Source: Candidatus Roizmanbacteria bacterium GW2011_GWC1_37_12
GTDB taxonomy: Bacteria > Patescibacteriota > Microgenomatia > UBA1406 > GWC2-37-13
Length of the DNA stretch: 46,134 nucleotides
Direction: 5' to 3'
Assembly: GCA_000991135.1 (NCBI GenBank)
Contig: LBST01000009.1
Location: 1 to 46,134, forward strand
Shown: piece after piece, positions 20,283 through 39,808 of the stretch
How the letters are laid out: each line of letters opens with the position of its first letter
Numbering within the stretch: position 1 is the first letter of the stretch
Notes under the pieces: generated by a model
What the model was told of the DNA's origin: nothing
The model's database searches: none
The model's input: the letters and a program-made list of their open reading frames with translations, nothing else
Program-made: the position numbers and the translations under genes

Positions 20283-21983
20283 ATGAAAGCAAAGTGGATA
20301 GTGCTATTGGCCTGTCTAACCATACTTGCGTCAGTAATACCTGTTGTCAAAGCTCAAGAATGTTGTACCTCTTTCCAGTGTAATGGTGAGGCAAACGAAG
20401 AGTCTTGTTTGGGAGGTAATTATTATGTTCAATGTATAGGTGCAGATCCTAATTGCTTAACTGATCCATATGCAACACAAGGATATTGTCGTTATAGCTG
20501 TGTATTTGATCAGGGTTGCGGTGGAGCAGTCTGGCCTTCATGCGTGGGTTGGTGTTCAGATGGACAGGTATGTCAATCAGGGTCATCAGAGCCATGCAAG
20601 TGCCGAACGCCAAAAACCTGCAGTGATGTTATTACCCAGCCGAGCGATCCTACGGTAACGAGAACTTCGCCAACGACCGCCACCGTCACTTTCAAATTAT
20701 ATCCTAATCCAAACGTCACCAGAATGTCTTTGAAAGTCCAGGTAATTTATGGTAATGATTCTCCGATTGTTGATGAGCAAAATATCAATCCCCAAGGCAA
20801 CGGGACCACTAATTATTATGTCAGCGGGTTGACTGCAGGAAAATACTATTTGGTCAGCGTTCGCTACTATGCCGAAGGTGCCATCGGAATTTTATCAGGT
20901 TGTTCAGCTTCTGCCTCGACCGATTACCTCTCCTCCTGTAGGCTCAATCCCAATCCCCTCAATTTAGCCAATCCAGGCTCAACCGGCGCTCTTTCCTCTG
21001 AAGTCGTCGACGACGTCGGCCGGGTTACCTTTGGCTCATCTGACAGCCAGGTCGTCAGTGTCAATAAAAACGTCGACACCTCTTATCCTTTTTCAACTAC
21101 TGTCACCGGCAACGAAGATGGCGGAGCCCAAGTAAGCAATAGCGTCCAGGTTCTCCAAAGCGGCAGTTGGATCACGATGTGTACCGATTACTCCAATGTG
21201 ACAGTCGGCCCGTTGACTCCGACCCCGACCCCCTCCAATACCCCAACGCCGACCCCGACTCCAGCTCCGGGCGCTTGGATAAAACTCAAAGACGTTTCTT
21301 TTTACGCCGATTCCAGCCTTAATAACAGCGTTCCTTCTGTTCCGACTGCCTATGACAGCGACGATGACGCGTCCGCCAACTTCATCATCGGCGAAGCCGG
21401 CCTTGTCTCTGCTTCATCAATCAATCTCGGTTACGGTCAGCCGTCGCAAAACAACTGGTCGGTCAGCAGTTATCAAACTTCTACTTTTTATTCTTCGTCT
21501 TTGTTTCTGTCTTATGTCAAAGCCCGAAAAGAGACGACCGCGATCACCAATCTTTCTCAAATTGATAGCGACGGCATCTATATCTGGAGTGGAACCGATC
21601 CTTTGACAGTCAACGATGGCAACAAAAATTTTTTTAACAACTACAAAATTATTCTTATTTCGCAAGGAACAGTTAATATCGCCAGTATGACTTTTTCTCC
21701 AACAGGAGGTTCAACCGCAATTATTGCTTCTGATATAGGCTTCGATCTTTCAGTCGTCCAGGCCGACGGAATCTTCATTGGCCAAAATGTCACAACAGGC
21801 GCCACTATTAATCAAGGCCTGAAGATTAAAGGCAATCTGATCGCCCAAGGTTCCCTGACAAACAGCAGAAACTGGGTCGATTTAAACAGACCGACGATCT
21901 TTGTTGTCTTTGATAGTCAAAAATATCTTGATCTGTTACCATATTTAAGTACGGCTAGTTATGAGTGGAACCAAACGCAGTAA
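20283..21983 (+). CDS. Secreted cysteine-rich, fibronectin-like, PT-linker surface protein
   Basis: About 566 aa. The start at 20283 gives a clear signal peptide (MKAKWIVLLACLTILASV...VVKA, cleavage before QECC). Then come a cysteine-rich region (residues about 25-110), a fibronectin-III-like module (TVTRTSPTTATVTFKLYPNP ... LTAGKYYLVSVRYY), a beta-sandwich, a TPTPTPSNTPTPTPTP linker (about 310-328) and a C-terminal parallel-beta-like region. It ends in LDLLPYLSTASYEWNQTQ, a terminal motif I associate with a large family of CPR surface proteins that are often next to pilin-like genes. An adjacent pilin-like gene is indeed 132 bp downstream. A 45-bp exact copy of its 3' end survives at 34635-34703. 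Confidence 0.75.
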   Translation: MKAKWIVLLACLTILASVIPVVKAQECCTSFQCNGEANEESCLGGNYYVQCIGADPNCLTDPYATQGYCRYSCVFDQGCGGAVWPSCVGWCSDGQVCQSGSSEPCKCRTPKTCSDVITQPSDPTVTRTSPTTATVTFKLYPNPNVTRMSLKVQVIYGNDSPIVDEQNINPQGNGTTNYYVSGLTAGKYYLVSVRYYAEGAIGILSGCSASASTDYLSSCRLNPNPLNLANPGSTGALSSEVVDDVGRVTFGSSDSQVVSVNKNVDTSYPFSTTVTGNEDGGAQVSNSVQVLQSGSWITMCTDYSNVTVGPLTPTPTPSNTPTPTPTPAPGAWIKLKDVSFYADSSLNNSVPSVPTAYDSDDDASANFIIGEAGLVSASSINLGYGQPSQNNWSVSSYQTSTFYSSSLFLSYVKARKETTAITNLSQIDSDGIYIWSGTDPLTVNDGNKNFFNNYKIILISQGTVNIASMTFSPTGGSTAIIASDIGFDLSVVQADGIFIGQNVTTGATINQGLKIKGNLIAQGSLTNSRNWVDLNRPTIFVVFDSQKYLDLLPYLSTASYEWNQTQ

Positions 21984-22115
21984 AAACAGTTAAACCTTAA
22001 AACCTAAACAGTTAAAAAAACTATTAAACTAATAATTATTAAACAAAATACAAATTTGAATGTTTAAGGTTTAAAAGTTTTTTTAGGTTTTAACCGTTTA
22101 ACAGTTTAACTGTTT
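21984..22115. repeat. AACAGTTAAAC-word inverted-repeat block
   Basis: The left side carries AACAGTTAAACC-like words and the right side their inverse complement (GGTTTAA, GTTTAACAGTTTAACTG), so the whole gap can fold into one long imperfect hairpin. The same word family fills 22872-22935 and 23401-23533, so it brackets the pilin-like and dCMP deaminase genes. Confidence 0.75.
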
Positions 22116-23400: not shown

Positions 23401-23533
23401 AACAGTTAAACCGTTAAACGGTTAAATCTTAAAAAAACTTTTAAAATATTAAACCGCTAAACACTTTTTTCTGTTTAATACTTAACCGTTTAATAGTTTT
23501 TTTAACTGTTTAGGTTTTAAGGTTTAATTGTTT
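23401..23533. repeat. AACAGTTAAACCG-word inverted-repeat block
   Basis: Left words AAACAGTTAAACCGTTAAAC face right words GTTTTTTTAACTGTTTAGG. It is the same family as 21984-22115 and sits directly before the glycoside hydrolase start; part of the block (GTTTAATTGTTT) reaches within 1 nt of the ATG. Confidence 0.75.
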
Positions 23534-30813: not shown

Positions 30814-31495
30814 AGTTAAATTCTAACAAATAATCAACTCTTTTTTTTAATTGTTCGTCAGGACTCTTTGCCAAAAAACTTCCCGGACAGAGATAATCAG
30901 GTCTATATTTTAGAGAATTGATGTAGGGGAGAGTTTTATCATTGACAGCTCCGTCAAGAAAAATTTCCTTCCTATAACCTAACATCCTCAACTGTTCAAC
31001 TTTATTGAGTGTTTCGGGGATAAATGGCTTTCCTTGAGCGCCAGGGACAATTGACATGATTTGAATACAGGGTATAGCGCGTAGCCTGTAGCGTGTAGCC
31101 AAATCGCTTACTTGATCTTGAGGGTTGAGGACAAGACCTATATTAAATAGTGAATAGTGACTAGTGAGTAGTGAGTAGTTAGGAAAAAGATCGTAATGAA
31201 TAAAGACATTTTTAATATTAATAATATTTTTTATTTCTTCTAGTTTTTTTATTTCTGTTTCGTAATCTTTAACCATTAGGTGAAAGTCGAAAATAGTTTC
31301 TTTTAAATAGGATCTGTCCTTAGTAAGGACAGATCCTGTAAATGTTAAGAATTCATCAAGAGTTGCCGTCTTGTTGTCGACGTAAACGCCGTCGGCAAAA
31401 TCGATCTGAAAATATTTATAATAGGGCGAAAGTTTTTTTATGGTAGAAAAATAATCTTCAGCCTTATATTCAAGAATTGATGGGCAGATCTTCAT
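30803..31495 (-). CDS. rpe: Ribulose-phosphate 3-epimerase-like protein
   Basis: A 230-aa TIM-barrel protein of the Rpe family: ICPSILEY at the start, FDFHLMVKD with the catalytic metal-binding histidine region, IMSIVPGAQGKPF in place of the usual MSVNPGFGGQ, and FLDGAVND for the DGGI strand. The epimerase connects ribulose-5-phosphate with xylulose-5-phosphate; rpiB is also in the window. Divergence in the MSVNPGFGGQ loop makes substrate assignment less than certain. Three repeat-derived inserts are visible: GSVLTKDRSYLK (DNA 31309-31337), NYSLLTSHYSLFN (31147-31181) and TRYRLRAI (31073-31100). Confidence 0.85.
   Translation of the reverse strand: MKICPSILEYKAEDYFSTIKKLSPYYKYFQIDFADGVYVDNKTATLDEFLTFTGSVLTKDRSYLKETIFDFHLMVKDYETEIKKLEEIKNIINIKNVFIHYDLFPNYSLLTSHYSLFNIGLVLNPQDQVSDLATRYRLRAIPCIQIMSIVPGAQGKPFIPETLNKVEQLRMLGYRKEIFLDGAVNDKTLPYINSLKYRPDYLCPGSFLAKSPDEQLKKRVDYLLEFNYED
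31073..31100. repeat. GTAGC word block inside rpe
   Basis: Words TATAGCGC-GTAGCCTGTAGCGTGTAGCC encode ATRYRLRAI in frame. The same word family encodes AIRYTLHATR in rnhA (34411-34440) and HAIRYTLYP in the glycosyltransferase (39661-39692). Confidence 0.75.
31147..31181. repeat. AGTGA/AGTAG word block inside rpe
   Basis: Tandem words (TAGTGAATAGTGACTAGTGA and so on) encode NYSLLTSHYSLF in frame. Confidence 0.7.
31309..31337. repeat. 29-bp perfect palindrome inside rpe (GGACAG family)
   Basis: Arms AGGATCTGTCCTTA and TAAGGACAGATCCT (14 bp each, perfect) flank a single G. It is in frame and encodes GSVLTKDRSYL. Confidence 0.85.
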
Positions 31496-31512: not shown

Positions 31513-32820
31513 ATGGACAAAAAACAGATTTTAGAAAAATTTTCCCAATTAGTTTCGATTGAATCGGTTTCAACCGACTCAAAACGCCATAAAGAAATTT
31601 TAAAAGCCGCCGAATTTATCAGAAAAGAACTAATTCAATTAGGTTGTCAAGTAAATCTATATCAAAAAGATAACTGTCCACCTTTAATTATAGGGAAATA
31701 TAGACCCTCCTTCGCGCCTCCTTCGCCGAAGTGGCTACGAAGGCCGAGCAAGGCTACGGAGGGCAAAGCAATTGGCGTCTATGCTCATTATGACGTTCAG
31801 CCCGAAGACCCGATAACCAAATGGAAGACTCCACCTTTCAAATTAACTGTAAAAAACGGAAAAATTTATGGCCGAGGAACAGCCGATGACAAAGGTCACT
31901 TAATTCAAGTATTGACTTCGATTAAACGTTTAATCGAAGTAGACAAACTTGACAATAACATCGTTTGTATTTTTGAAGGTGAAGAAGAAATTAGCAGTAA
32001 AAATTTTGAAGAACTGATAAAAAAGGACCCGTCTTTAAAGAATATTGACGCTTTTTATGTTGTTGATATGGGGATGAAAGCTAAAAACATTCCCCAGATA
32101 TTTTACGGACTTCGGGGAGTGATAGGATTTGAATTAAAGATAAAAACTAGTGAGATAGACCTTCATTCAGGCGTCTTTGGCAATCGGGTTTTGAACCCAG
32201 CCCAGCTGGCAGCAGAATTGATGAGCAAGATGGTTGACGGTCAGACGCACGAGATCAAAATTCCGGGGTTTTATGACGACGTCAAAAAAACCAGTAAAGA
32301 AGAGATAGAGCTTTTGTTAAAATCAAATTCGACTTTGGTGTCAAAGGTCTATCCGGCCCTAGATATCAATGGAGTGGTTTCCGGTTATACAGGCGAAGGG
32401 TTTAAGACGATTATTCCGGCCGAAGCCTTGGTGAAATTTTCTATAAGGTTGGTTCCTCATCAAGATCATAAGAAGATAGAGAAACTGGTCGAGAAATTTG
32501 TCAAAAATAATCTGCCAAAAGAAGTCGAATATGAATTCAGAGAGCCCACTGGGAGCAATGCTTTTTACACGGATTTTAAGAATCCATTTGCTCAAAAAAC
32601 CGCGGAAGTTTTTGAGGATGTTTTCAAAAACGAGACTTTGTTTAATCGAAGCGGTGGGTCGGTCGCAGCGGCAGAAATATTGCAGAGGGTGTTTGAAAAA
32701 CCCGTAATCCTTATTGGTTTTAGTCTACCTGATGATAACATCCATGCACCGAACGAAAATTTTGACGAGGAAATGTTTTGGAAAGGCATAGTGGCTATCG
32801 AGAAAATCTTCGCGCAGTAA
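31513..32820 (+). CDS. M20-family metallopeptidase (dipeptidase-like)
   Basis: A 435-aa zinc peptidase. YAHYDVQPEDP (first metal ligands), GRGTADDKGHLIQVL (bridging Asp) and FEGEEEISS (general base and metal ligand) are intact, followed by the dimerisation domain (RGVIGFELKIKT...DLHSG) and the terminal IHAPNENFDEE histidine. It resembles bacterial and CNDP-type dipeptidases and likely releases amino acids from peptides in the cytosol. An insert (PSFAPPSPKWLRRPSKATEG) is produced by a 59-bp palindromic element at 31705-31763. Confidence 0.92.
   Translation: MDKKQILEKFSQLVSIESVSTDSKRHKEILKAAEFIRKELIQLGCQVNLYQKDNCPPLIIGKYRPSFAPPSPKWLRRPSKATEGKAIGVYAHYDVQPEDPITKWKTPPFKLTVKNGKIYGRGTADDKGHLIQVLTSIKRLIEVDKLDNNIVCIFEGEEEISSKNFEELIKKDPSLKNIDAFYVVDMGMKAKNIPQIFYGLRGVIGFELKIKTSEIDLHSGVFGNRVLNPAQLAAELMSKMVDGQTHEIKIPGFYDDVKKTSKEEIELLLKSNSTLVSKVYPALDINGVVSGYTGEGFKTIIPAEALVKFSIRLVPHQDHKKIEKLVEKFVKNNLPKEVEYEFREPTGSNAFYTDFKNPFAQKTAEVFEDVFKNETLFNRSGGSVAAAEILQRVFEKPVILIGFSLPDDNIHAPNENFDEEMFWKGIVAIEKIFAQ
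31705..31763. repeat. 59-bp CCCTCC...GGAGGG element inside the M20 gene
   Basis: Ends CCCTCCTTCGC and GCTACGGAGGG form imperfect terminal inverted repeats, with internal GAAG/CTACGAAGG words. It is in frame and lies before the first catalytic motif. It is a longer relative of the 23-bp palindrome at 24464-24486. Confidence 0.75.
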
Positions 32821-32835
32821 AGCGCCGAAATAACT

Positions 32836-32958
32836 GCTTTGTAGATTATACGCTACAGACAATTTTCAATTAGCAATTTACAATTTACATTGAATTTTCA
32901 TCGAGTCAATGTTTCATTGAAAATTTATTGAAAATTGAAAACTGAAAATTGCAAATTG
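32836..32958. repeat. CAATTTTCA-word block before and into dprA
   Basis: The block runs from 32862 leftwards words (CAATTTTCAATTAGCAATTTAC) to rightward inverse words (TTGAAAATTGAAAACTGAAAATTGCAAATTG) and covers the presumed dprA start at 32935. It is the same family as 29473-29577. Confidence 0.65.
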
Positions 32959-34182
32959 TATTATTTAGGCTTTTCCCATTTCTTAGGCATCGGGCCGGTG
33001 AAGTTTTCTTTGCTGAAAAAACATTTTGGATCGGCAAAAAGAGCCTATTTGGCGGATAAAAAAGAATTAGTTAAAACAATTGGTGTTGTTTTGACAGAGA
33101 AGTTTGTTGATTTTAGAAATAAGTTTGATCCGGTGAAGAAAATGGAGGAGTTAAAGAAAAAAGAGATAATGGTTTTGGCGGTTGATGATGAGGATTATCC
33201 GGAAAGTTTAAGAAATATCTCCGATCCGCCAATTTGCATTTATTTAAGAGGCTCGATACCGAAATTTTTTAACGCAGTGGGGACCCCTAACCCCAAAAGC
33301 GTAAAAGATTTGGTATCTTCGCCTTCCCGAAAAGCGAAGACACCTGTTTTTGAAGTCTATGACTTGGGGGACCCCCCTTTAGGGGGTGAAGTCGACGGAA
33401 AAACACGGTGTCGAGCTTTTAGTCAAAATCTAGTTTTTTCCATAGTTGGTACTCGTAATCCCACTCAATACGGCATCCAGGTAGCGAGAAAATTTTCCTA
33501 TGAGTTAACTGAAGCAGGTTTTACGATTGTTTCCGGAATGGCCTATGGGATCGATACGATTGCTCACGAGTCCTGCCTTGAGGCAGGGGGAAAAACAATT
33601 GCCGTTTTAGGTTGCGGCGTTGATATTATTTATCCTTCATCAAATAGATTTCTTTATGAACGGATCTCGCACTGCGGGGGTGCGATTATTTCAGAATTTC
33701 CACCAGGGCAGTTTGTTTTGAAAGGTCTTTTTATTGCCAGAAATAGAATTATTTCTGCCCTTTCCCGCGGCGTGATGATCGTCGAGGGAGCAAAAGATTC
33801 AGGCTCTCTTATCACCGCCCGCTATGCCGCTACGCAGGGAAAAGACGTCTTTGCGCCGCCAAACCCGATTACATCTGTTATGTCTGCCGCGCCAAATTTG
33901 CTTATTAAACAGGGAGCAAAATTAGTGACTTCGGTTGAAGATATAATGGAGGAGTTTGACATGAAAATTACGCCTAAGAAAAAAGAAGATATTAAAAAGA
34001 AATTAAACGAGATTGAGAGATTAATATTTGAGATTTTGGAAGAAAAACCAATATTAATTGACGACTTGGCTATAATACTGAAGAAACCGATCAGTCAGGT
34101 TTTAAATACTCTTTCTTTAATGGAAATTAACGGTTTGGTCGAGAAAAATGACGAAAATTATTACCAAATTAGACTATTTTGA
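32935..34182 (+). CDS. dprA: DNA-processing protein DprA with a repeat-derived insert
   Basis: DprA protects incoming single-stranded DNA and loads RecA in natural transformation. The 415-aa frame has a SAM/HhH-like start (LGFSHFLGIGPVKFSLLKKHFGS), the Rossmann DprA domain (IVGTRNPTQYG, GMAYGIDTIAHE, GCGVDIIYP, ARNRIISALSRGVMIVEG, SGSLITARYA) and a C-terminal winged helix (IFEILEEKPILIDDLAIILKK). The TTG start at 32935 lies inside a word-repeat block, so the first eight residues are uncertain. Just before IVGTRN is an insert of roughly 50 residues (around 115-165), made by two adjacent inverted repeats at 33312-33413; DprA homologues have only a short linker there. Confidence 0.92.
   Translation: MKTENCKLYYLGFSHFLGIGPVKFSLLKKHFGSAKRAYLADKKELVKTIGVVLTEKFVDFRNKFDPVKKMEELKKKEIMVLAVDDEDYPESLRNISDPPICIYLRGSIPKFFNAVGTPNPKSVKDLVSSPSRKAKTPVFEVYDLGDPPLGGEVDGKTRCRAFSQNLVFSIVGTRNPTQYGIQVARKFSYELTEAGFTIVSGMAYGIDTIAHESCLEAGGKTIAVLGCGVDIIYPSSNRFLYERISHCGGAIISEFPPGQFVLKGLFIARNRIISALSRGVMIVEGAKDSGSLITARYAATQGKDVFAPPNPITSVMSAAPNLLIKQGAKLVTSVEDIMEEFDMKITPKKKEDIKKKLNEIERLIFEILEEKPILIDDLAIILKKPISQVLNTLSLMEINGLVEKNDENYYQIRLF
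33312..33413. repeat. Palindromic element copy A (in dprA)
   Basis: The core 33339-33413 (75 bp) has imperfect terminal inverted repeats (GACACCTGTTTTT... and ...AAAAACACGGTGTC) and a central hairpin, ACCCCCCTTTAGGGGGT. Its middle 39 bp are identical to the element in tatD in the opposite orientation. A second small inverted repeat adjoins on the left: GGTATCTTCGC (33312-33322) with GCGAAGACACC (33334-33344), one mismatch. Confidence 0.9.
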
Positions 34183-34193
34183 CAGGCCGATCG

Positions 34194-34210
34194 GCAACCT
34201 CCGAGGTTGC
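34194..34210. terminator. Hairpin between convergent dprA and rnhA
   Basis: GCAACCTC-C-GAGGTTGC is a 17-nt perfect inverted repeat, preceded by the palindrome GCCGATCGGC (34186-34195). It could end transcription from both sides, but there is no U-run, so it may be another palindromic repeat rather than an intrinsic terminator. Confidence 0.4.
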
Positions 34211-34215
34211 GGAGG

Positions 34216-34608
34216 CTAGACCTGATTGACTAAAAGATCCGCCTCGCTGTTTTGCTCGCGGGGAATCAAATGATAGGAAATTGGCAGATTTATTTCTTGT
34301 TCGAGTCCGCGAATCTTCAAAATATATTCTTTGATTTTTCCATTTTTGACTTTGAATAGTCCTTTAACTTGATTCACCATTAATCGTGAGTCCGAATAGA
34401 ATTCAATTCGTGTAGCGTGTAGCGTATAGCGTATAGCCTGTTCGAGTGCCTTGATTAATGCTAAATATTCAGCATCGTTGTTTGTAGCGACGCCGATTGA
34501 TTCTTTGTGCTTGAAAACAACCTTATTATTTAAATAGAAAATAATCCCGATCGATGCGGGCCCGGGATTGCCTTTTGAGCCGCCATCGGTATAAATTCGT
34601 AAAATCAT
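34216..34608 (-). CDS. rnhA: Ribonuclease HI-like protein
   Basis: A 130-aa RNase H fold protein that would cut RNA in RNA-DNA hybrids. The start MILRIYTDGGSKGNPGPASIG gives the first catalytic Asp; NNDAEYLALIKAL gives the Glu; EFYSDSRLMVNQV gives the second Asp; the terminal PREQNSEADLLVNQ gives the last Asp. It is the short bacterial/archaeal type without the basic protrusion of E. coli RNase HI. A repeat word block (34411-34440) adds RYTLHATR before the strand EFYSDS. No enzyme-level oddity is seen. Confidence 0.92.
   Translation of the reverse strand: MILRIYTDGGSKGNPGPASIGIIFYLNNKVVFKHKESIGVATNNDAEYLALIKALEQAIRYTLHATRIEFYSDSRLMVNQVKGLFKVKNGKIKEYILKIRGLEQEINLPISYHLIPREQNSEADLLVNQV
34411..34440. 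repeat. GTGTAGCG/GTATAGC word block inside rnhA
   Basis: GTGTAGCGTGTAGCG followed by TATAGCGTATAGCC; in frame, encodes AIRYTLHATR on the minus strand. Confidence 0.75.
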
Positions 34609-34634
34609 AAGTTTTGAAATTATTTTCTATTTCC

Positions 34635-34703
34635 TTATTGGCTTTGGTTCCACTCATAACTAGCCGTACTTAAATATGGTAACAGATTGATGTATAAATT
34701 ATT
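34635..34703 (-). pseudogene. Remnant of a second LPYLSTASYEW surface-protein gene
   Basis: Read on the minus strand this stretch encodes NLLPYLSTASYEWNQSQ and a TAA stop. It has 45 bases identical to the 3' end of the surface-protein gene at 20283-21983 (21938-21982 region), differing only at the flanks. Upstream the frame is closed by stops near 34700. It is best read as the last trace of a lost paralogue. The rest of 34609-34742 holds no gene I can support. Confidence 0.8.
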
Positions 34704-34742
34704 ATAGTAGACTAAAAGATTTGCCATTTGAGATTATTTTAT

Positions 34743-34961
34743 TCATAAATTCCTCAATAACTTCCATAGCCTGACGCGAAGAGCGTCGGCGATCTTATGG
34801 AGGATCCTGATCGTCGGGTTGGCGCGGCCTTTTTCGATCCTTGAAATATAGGTCCGGTCGACGTCGCACAAAAAAGCTACCTGTTCTTGCGACATTTTCT
34901 TTTTCTCCCTGACTTTGAAAAGACAGCGGCCCAGCCTGTCGTAGAAAAAGTTTCCACGCAT
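34743..34961 (-). CDS. XRE-family HTH transcriptional regulator
   Basis: A 72-aa single-domain Cro/CI-like repressor. The helix-turn-helix is typical: KVREKKKMSQEQVAFLCDVDRTYISRIEKGRANPTIRILHKIADAL (about residues 16-62), with the second helix QEQVAFLCDV and recognition helix RTYISRIEKG. It probably acts as a dimer. A palindrome, GTCTATAGAC (34997-35006), sits in the spacer of a possible promoter (TACAAT at 34983-34988, minus strand) and may be its own operator. No obvious target operon besides itself and the nearby rpiB. Confidence 0.85.
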   Translation of the reverse strand: MRGNFFYDRLGRCLFKVREKKKMSQEQVAFLCDVDRTYISRIEKGRANPTIRILHKIADALRVRLWKLLRNL

Positions 34962-34982
34962 TCTGGCATTAAAGAATAGAGA

Positions 34983-35006
34983 ATTGTAAGAGCCTTGTCT
35001 ATAGAC
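34983..35006 (-). promoter_or_regulatory. Candidate autoregulated promoter of the XRE gene
   Basis: On the minus strand TACAAT (34983-34988) is preceded 8 bp away by the perfect palindrome GTCTATAGAC (34997-35006). A dimeric XRE protein bound here would block the polymerase. No good -35 box is seen. Confidence 0.35.
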
Positions 35007-35086
35007 GATAACCTACCAAAATATGGAAATAGGGCTTGGAGGCGGGATAGTTTTTGCAATATGCCATGTAGATTATCAGCCTCAAT

Positions 35087-35524
35087 TTATTGGTCTAGTT
35101 TTTTGATTCTTCGTAAGTATTTTTCGTCCATTTTGGGAGAAGCGGCTAAAAATGCGTCGACGATTTTTTTAGCGGTTTCATGATCGGTATAATCACTAGC
35201 TAAAGAGAGAACGTTGACATGATCGTTTTCTCTAATATGGCTGGTTTGGCTCTCATTCAGAGCGACTCCGGCCCTTATACCTTTGAGGCGATTGGCCGCA
35301 ATGATGACTGCACAACCCGATCCACAAATAAGAATTCCTAGATGATTGTCTGGATTTTGGAGGACGGCCTGGGCGACCTTTTGACCGAAATCAACGGCGT
35401 CGTCTAAGGGATCTTGCTCGTAGGCACCCAAATCCTCGATGCGGATATTTTTTTCATGAAGATATTCGAGGATTAAGTTTTTTAACTCAAATCCCCGGTG
35501 GTCAGCACCTATAAATATCGTCAT
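35087..35524 (-). CDS. rpiB: Ribose-5-phosphate isomerase B
   Basis: Interconverts ribose-5-phosphate and ribulose-5-phosphate. I use the ATG at 35524 (MTIFIGADHRGFELK), the normal family start; it has a TATAAT box exactly 6 nt upstream. The 145-aa protein has the substrate-binding DHRG (8-11), the catalytic CGSGCAV (Cys67) and the conserved LNESQTSHIRENDHVNVLSLAS segment that binds the phosphate. Together with the Rpe-like protein it supplies a ribose branch that could feed PRPP synthesis. Confidence 0.94.
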   Translation of the reverse strand: MTIFIGADHRGFELKNLILEYLHEKNIRIEDLGAYEQDPLDDAVDFGQKVAQAVLQNPDNHLGILICGSGCAVIIAANRLKGIRAGVALNESQTSHIRENDHVNVLSLASDYTDHETAKKIVDAFLAASPKMDEKYLRRIKKLDQ

Positions 35525-35536
35525 GCTAAAATTATA
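35525..35536 (-). promoter_or_regulatory. -10 box of rpiB
   Basis: TATAAT at 35531-35536 (minus strand), TTTAGC spacer of 6 nt, then the rpiB ATG. Confidence 0.6.
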
Positions 35537-35547
35537 CATTAATAACC

Positions 35548-35591
35548 AAATACTACAAATAAGCAAATAAACAAATGAATTTGTAGTATTT
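35548..35591. repeat. Inverted repeat between rpiB and tatD
   Basis: AAATACTACAAAT (35548-35560) and ATTTGTAGTATTT (35579-35591) are perfect 13-bp arms around an 18-nt loop, followed by CTATTTGTTT words leading to the tatD start. Confidence 0.8.
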
Positions 35592-35614
35592 GTAGATTTG
35601 TCTATTTGTTTATT

Positions 35615-36496
35615 ATGTTATTTGATACTCACTGTCATCTTAATTTTAAAGCCTTTGAGGGACGGGTCGAAGAGGTTGTTAGGGCGGCTAGGGATGCCGG
35701 CGTGAATAATATTATTGTTCCCGGGACCGACATTGAGACGTCGAAAAGGGCCGTGGAAATTGCCGAGAGATTCGAGGGCGTTTATGCGGCTGTTGGAATT
35801 CATCCGCATCACGTGTATGAGTTATTTTTAGAAGTTCGACACCGTGTTTTTTCGTCGACTTCACCCCCTAAAGGGGGGTCCCCCAAGTCATTGACGAAAA
35901 AACAGGTGTCTACACTTTTATATTTATTAAAAAATCCTAAAGTTGTTGCTATTGGAGAGGTGGGGATTGATAAACACAATTATCAAAAAACAAAACACCA
36001 GGATTATAAAGTCGATGAGGCGTTTGTTGAGCTACAAAAAATATTTTTAATAGAACAGATAAAACTTGCAATGAAACACAATAAGAGTTTGATTTTGCAT
36101 AATCGGGAAGCGAAAAAAGATATGTTAAAAATATTATCTAATGACGAATTACGAATTACGGATTACCGATCTGTATTCCACTGTTGTGAACCTGATGAGG
36201 AATTGTTACAGTTTGCCAGAGATCATAAGATGTTTATCGGCGTTGACGGTGATGTAGTTTATTGGAAAAAGAAACAGGAATTTATTAAAAAAGTACCTCT
36301 GGAGATGTTGGTTTTGGAGACTGACTCGCCTTATTTATCACCTTTTAGAAAATTCCTGCCTGCGCAGGCAGGCCCAAACGAACCAAAAAATATTTCTTTT
36401 ATAGCAGAGTTCATTGCTAAATTGTTAAATTGTCAAATTGATGAATTAAAGAAGCAAACGACAGAGAATGCAAGAAAACTATTTAATCTTTCTTAG
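35615..36496 (+). CDS. tatD: TatD-family metal-dependent DNase/hydrolase with repeat-derived inserts
   Basis: An amidohydrolase-fold nuclease. The ATG at 35615 (MLFDTHCHLNF) gives the normal start; the longer form adds three residues. Metal ligands follow in order: HxH in DTHCHL, the Glu in AIGEVGIDKHNY, His in LILHNREAK, His in VFHCCEP, and Asp in LETDSPYLSP. About 293 aa, longer than the usual 255-265. Three repeat-derived inserts explain the excess: VFSSTSPPKGGSPKSLTKKQ (DNA 35837-35910, copy B of the dprA element), ELRITDYRS (36143-36167) and LPAQAGP (36355-36372). Confidence 0.93.
   Translation: MLFDTHCHLNFKAFEGRVEEVVRAARDAGVNNIIVPGTDIETSKRAVEIAERFEGVYAAVGIHPHHVYELFLEVRHRVFSSTSPPKGGSPKSLTKKQVSTLLYLLKNPKVVAIGEVGIDKHNYQKTKHQDYKVDEAFVELQKIFLIEQIKLAMKHNKSLILHNREAKKDMLKILSNDELRITDYRSVFHCCEPDEELLQFARDHKMFIGVDGDVVYWKKKQEFIKKVPLEMLVLETDSPYLSPFRKFLPAQAGPNEPKNISFIAEFIAKLLNCQIDELKKQTTENARKLFNLS
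35837..35910. repeat. Palindromic element copy B (in tatD)
   Basis: 74 bp, the reverse complement of the element in dprA (33339-33413): 39 identical bases in the middle and similar ends (CGACACCGTGTTTTTTCGTC on the left; GACGAAAAAACAGGTGTC on the right). The ends form better inverted repeats here than in dprA. Confidence 0.9.
36143..36167. repeat. ACGAATT word block inside tatD
   Basis: GACGAATTACGAATTACGG followed by ATTACC; in frame; encodes ELRITDYR. Compare 6458-6486. Confidence 0.7.
36355..36372. repeat. 18-bp perfect palindrome inside tatD
   Basis: CCTGCCTGCGCAGGCAGG, in frame, encodes LPAQAG. It belongs to the family at 8465-8480. Confidence 0.85.
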
Positions 36497-38666: not shown

Positions 38667-39808
38667 ATAATGTTTAGGAATTCTTTTCTGAATTTTTTTG
38701 GAGAAAAAAATTCGCCCCTTTTTTTTGCTTTGTCTCCTAAAGATTTTTTCAATTCTTTATTGAAATAAACCTCACCGATTTTATCGGCAATATCATTGGG
38801 GTTTTCCGGATTGGCAAAAAGGGACTGTCCTTTTAGGAACTGTCCTTTTAAGGACCGTCCCGAAATCTCGTTTAATACGGGGATATTCGATAAAACTGAC
38901 GGACATCCTTGGGAAGCGGCTTCAAGAAAAGAAAAACCAAATCCTTCGTCCCTTGAGAGCAAGACGTTGATGCTTGCTTGTTGGTAAAATTTGATCAGCT
39001 CGGAATCGGGCAAGAAACCGGCGAAAATGAAACGTTTGTCGTCTTTTGTTTCTTCAAGAAATTGCCTAAATTCTTTTTGCCAGGGATGGTTCAGCGACGG
39101 GGCCTGTCTCGGATTCACTCCCGCCGGTGCTCGGTCGATCAATATTCCTCCACTGCGCGCCGTCGGGAACCCTTCTTCCTCGACACCCGTCGCTTCTCCA
39201 AAAACCCTTCCTACAAATACGCAGGTGACATTGATTATCTTTATTGCTCTAGCAAGATTAACGAGGTTTTTATTCCAGGTGGCATCGCCTACGTAAAGGC
39301 AGAATTTAGAATTTAGATTTAAGAATGTAGAATCTATTAATTCTGAATTCTGAATTTTAGATTCTAAGTTTGTAAATATTCTAGGGAGGTACGGATAAAT
39401 AACTTTAATCTTTTTTTCTCGAATACCTAAGATATTAATAATATCATGCTTTGAGGCTTCAGAGTCAGTAACTATCAGGTCATAATTTTTTAAAGCGAGC
39501 TTGTTTAAAAAAATATTTATGTTTCCGCGAATGCCTGCTGGGAAATGAGAGGGATATTTGAGGGGGATGAGATCGTGAATGACGGCAATCTGTTTTTTGG
39601 CGAGACGACGCATTGTCAACGGTTTCTGCAAAAAATTAAAGAAGGGATTGATAAAGATGGGGTATAACGTATAGCGTATAGCGTGTAACGTATTGGTGAA
39701 AGTCCAGTCAGGAAAGTTTTCTTTGAGGATTTGCAAATAACGGCCGACGCCGCGGACAGAGCTTAGTTTATCTTTCGCCGTCGGATCATAGACAAAGACT
39801 TTTTTCAT
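38663..39808 (-). CDS. GT4-family glycosyltransferase with repeat-derived inserts
   Basis: A 381-aa glycosyltransferase of GT-B fold. FCLYVGDATWNKNLVNLARAI opens the donor-binding domain, and DEGFGFSFLEAASQGCPSVLSN is the nucleotide-sugar motif of GT4 (retaining) enzymes. FIFAGFLPDSELIKFYQQA is also typical. Four inserts stand out: HAIRYTLYP (DNA 39661-39692), NLESKIQNSELIDST (39301-39368), a GC-rich segment GVEEEGFPTARSGGILIDRA (about 39095-39200), and GRSLKGQFLKGQSL (38821-38861). Sugar and acceptor unknown; probably extracellular glycan synthesis. Confidence 0.86.
   Translation of the reverse strand: MKKVFVYDPTAKDKLSSVRGVGRYLQILKENFPDWTFTNTLHAIRYTLYPIFINPFFNFLQKPLTMRRLAKKQIAVIHDLIPLKYPSHFPAGIRGNINIFLNKLALKNYDLIVTDSEASKHDIINILGIREKKIKVIYPYLPRIFTNLESKIQNSELIDSTFLNLNSKFCLYVGDATWNKNLVNLARAIKIINVTCVFVGRVFGEATGVEEEGFPTARSGGILIDRAPAGVNPRQAPSLNHPWQKEFRQFLEETKDDKRFIFAGFLPDSELIKFYQQASINVLLSRDEGFGFSFLEAASQGCPSVLSNIPVLNEISGRSLKGQFLKGQSLFANPENPNDIADKIGEVYFNKELKKSLGDKAKKRGEFFSPKKFRKEFLNII
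38821..38861. repeat. GGACTGTCC element inside the glycosyltransferase gene
   Basis: Outer arms GGGACTGTCCTT and AAGGACCGTCCC (one mismatch) and an internal partial copy (GGAACTGTCCTTTT). In frame; encodes GRSLKGQFLKGQSL. Confidence 0.75.
39095..39200. repeat. GC-rich insert inside the glycosyltransferase gene
   Basis: About 105 bp clearly richer in G+C than the rest of the gene, with CGACACCCGTCGC, CCGCCGGTGCTCGG and GCGCGCCGTCGGG. In frame, it encodes a loop rich in Arg, Ala and Gly between two strands of the donor domain. No clear inverted ends seen, so class is uncertain. Confidence 0.5.
39301..39368. repeat. AGAATTT/GAATTCT word block inside the glycosyltransferase gene
   Basis: Words AGAATTTAGAATTTAG on one side and TTCTGAATTCTGAATTTT on the other make an imperfect inverted repeat; in frame; encodes NLESKIQNSELIDSTFLNLN-like residues. 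Confidence 0.7.
39661..39692. repeat. GTATAGC word block inside the glycosyltransferase gene
   Basis: GGTATAACGTATAGCGTATAGCG continues with TGTAACG; encodes HAIRYTLYP on the minus strand; same words as rpe and rnhA. Confidence 0.75.

Follow-up and report, generated by a model that had tools for sequence, protein, structure and literature searches.

In the current study, we identified a family of short palindromic DNA elements that lies in frame within conserved genes of Candidatus Roizmanbacteria bacterium GW2011_GWC1_37_12 and is dispersed through the genomes of its relatives. Two closely similar copies interrupt dprA and tatD in the window (the whole 46,134-nucleotide stretch of contig LBST01000009.1 that was analysed), and we confirmed that both genes, as had been claimed, stay open across the insert. 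Judging from the comparisons described below, the elements very probably make up a non-autonomous, MITE-like selfish family that is moved in trans and is tolerated in permissive protein loops. The features concerned are listed here; R1 is a covariance model built from 23 copies and R2 is the model for subfamily B.

32935..34182, forward strand: dprA host gene (TIGR00732, E 1e-71)
33247..33326, forward strand: second palindrome in dprA, subfamily B, abutting copy 1 (R2, 102 bits; R1, 36 bits); translated as GSIPKFFNAVGTPNPKSVKDLVSSPS
33330..33422, reverse strand: element copy 1 in dprA, subfamily A, from blastn and covariance model (model bounds 33330-33420), ORF open; translated as KAKTPVFEVYDLGDPPLGGEVDGKTRCRAF, in the orientation antisense to the usual coding one
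35618..36496, forward strand: tatD host gene (TIGR00010, E 9e-61, match split into two stretches)
35829..35919, forward strand: element copy 2 in tatD, subfamily A, from blastn and covariance model (model bounds 35830-35919); translated as EVRHRVFSSTSPPKGGSPKSLTKKQVSTL
35830..35855, forward strand: left outer arm of copy 2, with a variable 4-nt tip, the GTTCGACACC motif, a conserved bulged G and a T run
35857..35889, forward strand: inner hairpin of copy 2 (GACTT..AAGTC and ACCCCC..GGGGGT)
35893..35919, forward strand: right outer arm of copy 2, GACGAAAAAACAGGTGTCTACACTTTT, with the family motif GGTRTCTTCGC

The preliminary description of this DNA had proposed that a single 75-bp palindromic element lies in dprA and tatD in opposite orientations, with 39 identical bases between the copies. 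This was borne out by blastn, which gave 93% identity over those 75 nt (90-93% overall), by a complementarity of 91% over 74 nt, and by a longest common exact run of 39 nt, read directly from the sequence. The palindrome is therefore real, but the borders originally given were too narrow and should be placed at about 33330-33420 and 35830-35919. The unit is a roughly 90-nt imperfect palindrome, in which the complementarity between the ends jumps well above background exactly at AAAAGC...GCTTTT; outside these borders, no complementarity was found between the flanks. Folding of the hairpins as single-stranded DNA was far better than that of shuffled sequence (z scores of -3.4, -5.7, and -6.7).

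We also found that dprA does not hold one element, as previously thought. A search with R1 picked up a further palindrome, overlooked in the preliminary description, at 33247-33326, just before copy 1. It belongs to a second subfamily and has the ends AAAAGCTCGATACCGAAATTTTTT; it is the inner hairpin that distinguishes the two subfamilies, via paired changes. The composite insert (33247-33422, 176 nt) sits in the linker preceding the Rossmann fold, and DprA gains about 59 residues from the two elements. That this linker is the site of insertion agrees with the TIGR00732 match and with an AlphaFold2 model in which residues 107 to 168, nearly the whole composite insert, have a pLDDT of <50; the quality of this model was modest (pTM 0.41), and it was used solely for the disorder of the insert. 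In TatD, the insert enlarges a loop, again as first suggested: it follows GIHPHH, it splits the TIGR00010 match into two stretches, and AlphaFold2 renders it as a low-confidence loop between helices (block means of about 50, with much of the core at >90). In both proteins, then, the inserts are loops that are predicted to be disordered; their peptide stretches in TatD/DprA include RHRVFSSTSPPKGG and KTPVFEVYDLGDPPL. Separately, another small palindrome, CCTGCCTGCGCAGGCAGG, lies in frame in tatD at 36354-36376 (translated as KFLPAQAGPNEP), and its residues are missing from the aligned TatD relatives.

Across the family, the ends are conserved (GCTYGAYACC...GGTRTCTTCGC), as are the points at which symmetry is broken, namely, a bulged G that follows ACC and, beside the ends, an internal loop with unequal sides (TC/TTC). 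The interiors enclosed by these end motifs vary in both length (about 20 nt to >80 nt) and sequence, and some loops contain other, nested palindromes, a pattern to be expected of recognition confined to the ends.

The preliminary description had allowed that only two copies might exist. BLASTN and covariance model searches of the source genome instead gave nine clear copies (four of subfamily A and five of subfamily B), some of them on other contigs, together with some ten weaker copies and half a copy that lies in frame in lepA. R1 matches at an E value of 1e-4 were found in 50 of the 72 genomes of the GTDB family (the Candidatus Roizmanbacteria group), and at 1e-6 in 1 of 11 genomes from sister families in the order. 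In a phylum-wide sample of 380 genomes, only the source genome matched, which is a weak negative, given that 11 candidates per genome were scored and that one other family member was among them. In a DNA-pattern scan of named genomes, eight loci matched, six from Candidatus Roizmanbacteria and two from entries titled just “bacterium,” and a search of viral contigs, plasmids, and phages gave no match to the element. The 0.5-Mb genome G017 carries 18 to 21 copies; given that 21 copies in this one genome are 84 to 100% identical and occupy unrelated sites, amplification there appears to have been recent.

Among 142 copies with flanks, 52 are deep inside ORFs (at least 30 codons within an ORF of at least 120 codons), 14 are at ORF edges, and 76 are outside; for unidentified hosts, this call rests on ORF length instead of annotation. 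Translation of the intragenic copies uses five of the six frames (+1, 23 copies; -1, 10; +2, 8; +0, 7; -0, 4), and the element is therefore not one conserved peptide domain. The translated peptides matched no NCBIfam model at an E value of 10. The hosts include nadE, tgt, queA, glutamate dehydrogenase (gdhA), a copper ATPase, an M16 peptidase, thioredoxin reductase, leucyl- and isoleucyl-type tRNA synthetases (leuS and ileS), a Trp/Tyr-type tRNA synthetase, a formyltransferase, a MurD-like ligase, dihydrofolate reductase, and transporters, and each insert adds about 25 to 30 amino acids to enzyme loops. Multiple copies in unrelated genes and varied frames support the original suggestion that a CPR bacterium harbours an in-frame dispersed palindromic family comparable to the Rickettsia palindromic elements (RPEs). 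We note in passing that, in several species, as many as three separate sites within tgt are occupied by palindromic inserts or what remains of them (the source genome's own copy, L042, and L011, L157, and L176), which makes this gene a hot spot for tolerated inserts.

How the element moves was approached through its borders and through possible mobilisers. Alignment with homologues yielded insert-free orthologues, as anticipated, but not the target-site duplication that such an alignment might have revealed: no consistent repeat of >2 nt was found at the borders of the 142 copies, of 21 young copies, or of related empty sites. No transposase carrying the element ends was found, and a search for an autonomous parent with the same arms, covering 20 draft genomes and 20 loci, returned only small or nested elements, the long cases being nested palindromes. 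The earlier statement that no transposase is linked to the element thus stands; its companion, that the element moves in trans, we infer.

One candidate for such a trans-acting enzyme is the RAYT family, and the alternative that we take most seriously, while considering it unlikely, is that the element is a REP/REPIN-type palindrome mobilised in trans by resident RAYT (Y1 HUH) transposases. The imperfect hairpin, with its conserved bulge and mismatches, and the lack of a target duplication are in keeping with this. Moreover, Y1 (RAYT, PF01797) genes are present in 15 of 20 genus genomes, and copy number correlates with RAYT number (Spearman coefficient of 0.50, P = 0.025; 0.69 without G017). 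However, copy-rich G017 itself has no PF01797 match, the GTAG tag expected at the hairpin foot is absent from the aligned ends, and only one weak match to the element was found among 30 loci around Y1 genes, many of which are flanked by their own, different palindromes (e.g., GCAACCTCCGAGGTTGC). As an observation in its own right, a REP-like palindrome, CAACCTCCGAGGTTG, lies just after dprA at 34195-34209; this sequence also occurs beside RAYT (Y1_Tnp) genes in the genus, including L134 in the source genome, and a resident RAYT therefore probably has it as its cognate REP.

A more speculative possibility, to which we give a lower probability than to the RAYT explanation, is that only the hairpin ends are conserved while the interior is swapped in place, by gene conversion or nested insertion, and that the palindrome has spread through a CPR lineage without a dedicated transposase, e.g., with single-stranded DNA from replication or DNA uptake as the intermediate, so that new protein loops arise from it time and again.

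Comparison between species revealed presence, absence, and replacement at the same sites. Four members of the genus (G017, G018, G019, and G032) have nothing inserted in the TatD loop after GIHPHH. This loop holds a subfamily A element in the source genome and B-type elements in G024 and G026, and several further members have different interiors or truncated remnants there; in G028, it holds a different repeat. Similarly, many species of the genus lack an insert in the DprA linker, whereas G000, G021, G022, G024, and G028 have B-type elements or remnants, G033 has a separate B-type copy in another frame, G026 has an A-type copy in the opposite orientation, and G023 has an unrelated repeat. An A copy beside a B copy was seen in the source genome only, within this sample. 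In queA of two species, common derived outer arms enclose different inner hairpins. From these arms and from the TatD and DprA occupancy patterns, it follows that insertions are tolerated, that they decay by deletion, and that the interior can be replaced in place.

About 11 of the 17 genus members have an element or a recognisable remnant in tatD, all with the same position and orientation, which indicates that the tatD site itself is old; in dprA, five members share a linker that contains a B-type element or what remains of one. Such sharing might be taken to mean that TatD and DprA acquired the insert long ago as a structural feature or domain, which has been inherited vertically and has a function for the host. 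We consider this very improbable: other members of the genus are empty at both sites; the sequence, subfamily, and frame vary by species; the copy 1 insert of dprA is unique to the source genome in the sample; and the same element is found in many unrelated proteins. The preliminary description had named the same insert at the same site in distant DprA and TatD proteins as the sign of an ancient domain. What we found instead were relatives without the insert, with remnants, or with another member of the family.

Equally improbable, in our view, is an RNA-level regulatory element (an attenuator, terminator, or riboswitch-like hairpin) that has spread for gene control. The hairpin is strong, and about half of the copies analysed lie between genes, one of them directly after a sortase stop codon. 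However, a third of the copies are inside ORFs, in varied frames and both orientations, and Rfam gave no match at the elements. The pairing itself is under clear constraint. In a MAFFT alignment, which was fitted to no structure, 19 of 25 pairs showed compensatory double changes, and 95% of pair cells were paired versus 33 to 50% with slid partners; an alignment of 90 further copies, fitted to the model, agreed with this result and contained 407 double-change cells. Of 3,547 pair cells, 3,232 were Watson-Crick, 76 were G-T, and 113 were A-C, so that among the non-Watson-Crick cells G-T was not in excess over A-C. Selection on RNA would favour G-U, and the palindrome therefore appears to have been selected as DNA. 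The covariation is very strong, and these counts indicate that the palindrome matters as DNA and not as RNA. Concerted evolution of the arms in place was considered and rejected: the four closest orthologous pairs showed no paired changes and four one-sided ones, and because the closest copies differ one-sidedly, the paired differences reflect, for the most part, different source elements.

Finally, although the dprA and tatD copies are 2.4 kb apart, inverted, and 90 to 93% identical, the idea that they are merely a two-copy inverted duplication produced by local recombination, with no mobile family behind it, can already be set aside in view of further copies on other contigs, in 50 of 72 family genomes, and in unrelated genes.

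We therefore return to a non-autonomous palindromic family, probably moved in trans, for which the following course may be envisaged. A transposase or hairpin-processing enzyme would recognise the imperfect hairpin ends in trans and would copy or move the element, without a detectable duplication of the target. Insertions that fell in a protein core or broke the reading frame would be purged by selection, whereas those with an open frame and a peptide fitting a tolerant loop would persist as a neutral insert of 25 to 30 residues in the host protein. Old copies decay by deletion to short remnants, as the comparison between species showed. Neutrality for the host, like mobilisation in trans, is presumed here.

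Several other repeats were seen along the way. In the M20-type peptidase ORF before dprA, an inserted-looking PSFAPPSPKWLRRPSKATEGK lies over palindromic DNA (CCTTCGCCGAAG...) at 31708-31770 and may represent a further repeat family that lies in frame. Tandem heptamers (GTATAGC/GTGTAGC) form short arrays at 34405-34442, 31058-31104, and 39662-39708, one of them in frame inside an RNase H-like ORF (RYTLHATR). Dispersed inverted repeat pairs of other families join 21901-21983 with 34635-34717 (80% complementary) and 21984-22048 with 23469-23533 (91%). A longer GC-rich repeat of about 130 nt, GGGTCCTGTCTCGG...CTCGACACCCG, lies inside or beside elements of the palindrome family at L253, L256, L258, and L259, and a relative of it occupies the TatD loop of G028. 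In G023, adenylosuccinate synthetase (purA, L032) contains the in-frame repeat VIASEAKQSQKKRSLRRFTPRDDKG, and a similar one is present in DprA.

Rickettsia is the main group known to carry palindromic elements in frame in conserved genes, and the present family adds a second, apparently independent lineage; in openly licensed PMC text, we found no earlier report of such elements in Patescibacteria. A second case in reduced, host-dependent bacteria suggests that small genomes and relaxed selection may generally lead to such elements. The many natural insertions could also be used to map the loops of essential enzymes that tolerate 25 to 30 extra residues. As a practical warning, these inserts cause domain models to split and DprA/TatD-type proteins to look odd.

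The family shares features with several known systems. Bacterial MITEs are likewise short, non-autonomous, and dispersed, with terminal inverted repeats, and are sometimes coding when intragenic (PMC10969869); the element described here is also a short, multicopy, noncoding element with terminal inverted repeats. Unlike MITEs, however, it is almost wholly palindromic, and neither a target duplication nor a parent insertion sequence was found for it. With REPs and REPINs, it has in common imperfect hairpins with conserved mismatches in RAYT-encoding genomes (PMC3733652), but it is longer, lacks the GTAG tag, and is unlinked to RAYT genes, the local RAYTs having other REPs. In the mitochondria of Nematomorpha, palindromes lie inside coding genes, their arms being kept matched as DNA and both encoding conserved protein sequence (PMC6649704). 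Tolerance in coding genes and arms that stay matched as DNA are seen in both cases, although the nematomorph palindromes are not dispersed mobile repeats.

The closest parallel is with the RPEs (Ogata et al. 2000, 2002), which, as summarised in later papers, comprise several palindrome families, many of them in frame in unrelated genes and with no linked transposase (PMC10969869, PMC3733652), and bear a terminal CGTC tetranucleotide tag (PMC3733652). As far as these accounts go, both systems consist of small palindromic repeats, with several families per genome and no linked transposase, in the reduced genomes of host-dependent bacteria, and both have a large in-frame share in genes of unrelated metabolic function; here, 52 of 142 copies are deep in ORFs of many unrelated conserved genes. 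By the same accounts, the present elements differ in belonging to another phylum, in their length (about 45 to 105 nt versus about 150 bp), in having the ends AAAAGCTYGAYACC..GGTRTCTTCGCTTTT instead of a terminal CGTC, and in exchanging interiors between shared ends. CGTC was not found at the element ends (AAAAGC..GCTTTT), being internal and confined to part of subfamily A. Because the tag, the ends, and the length differ and the peptides have no NCBIfam match, we have not filed the elements as RPEs, which were compared by description. Set apart in this way by the published description of the RPEs, the family works like them but appears to be a separate one.
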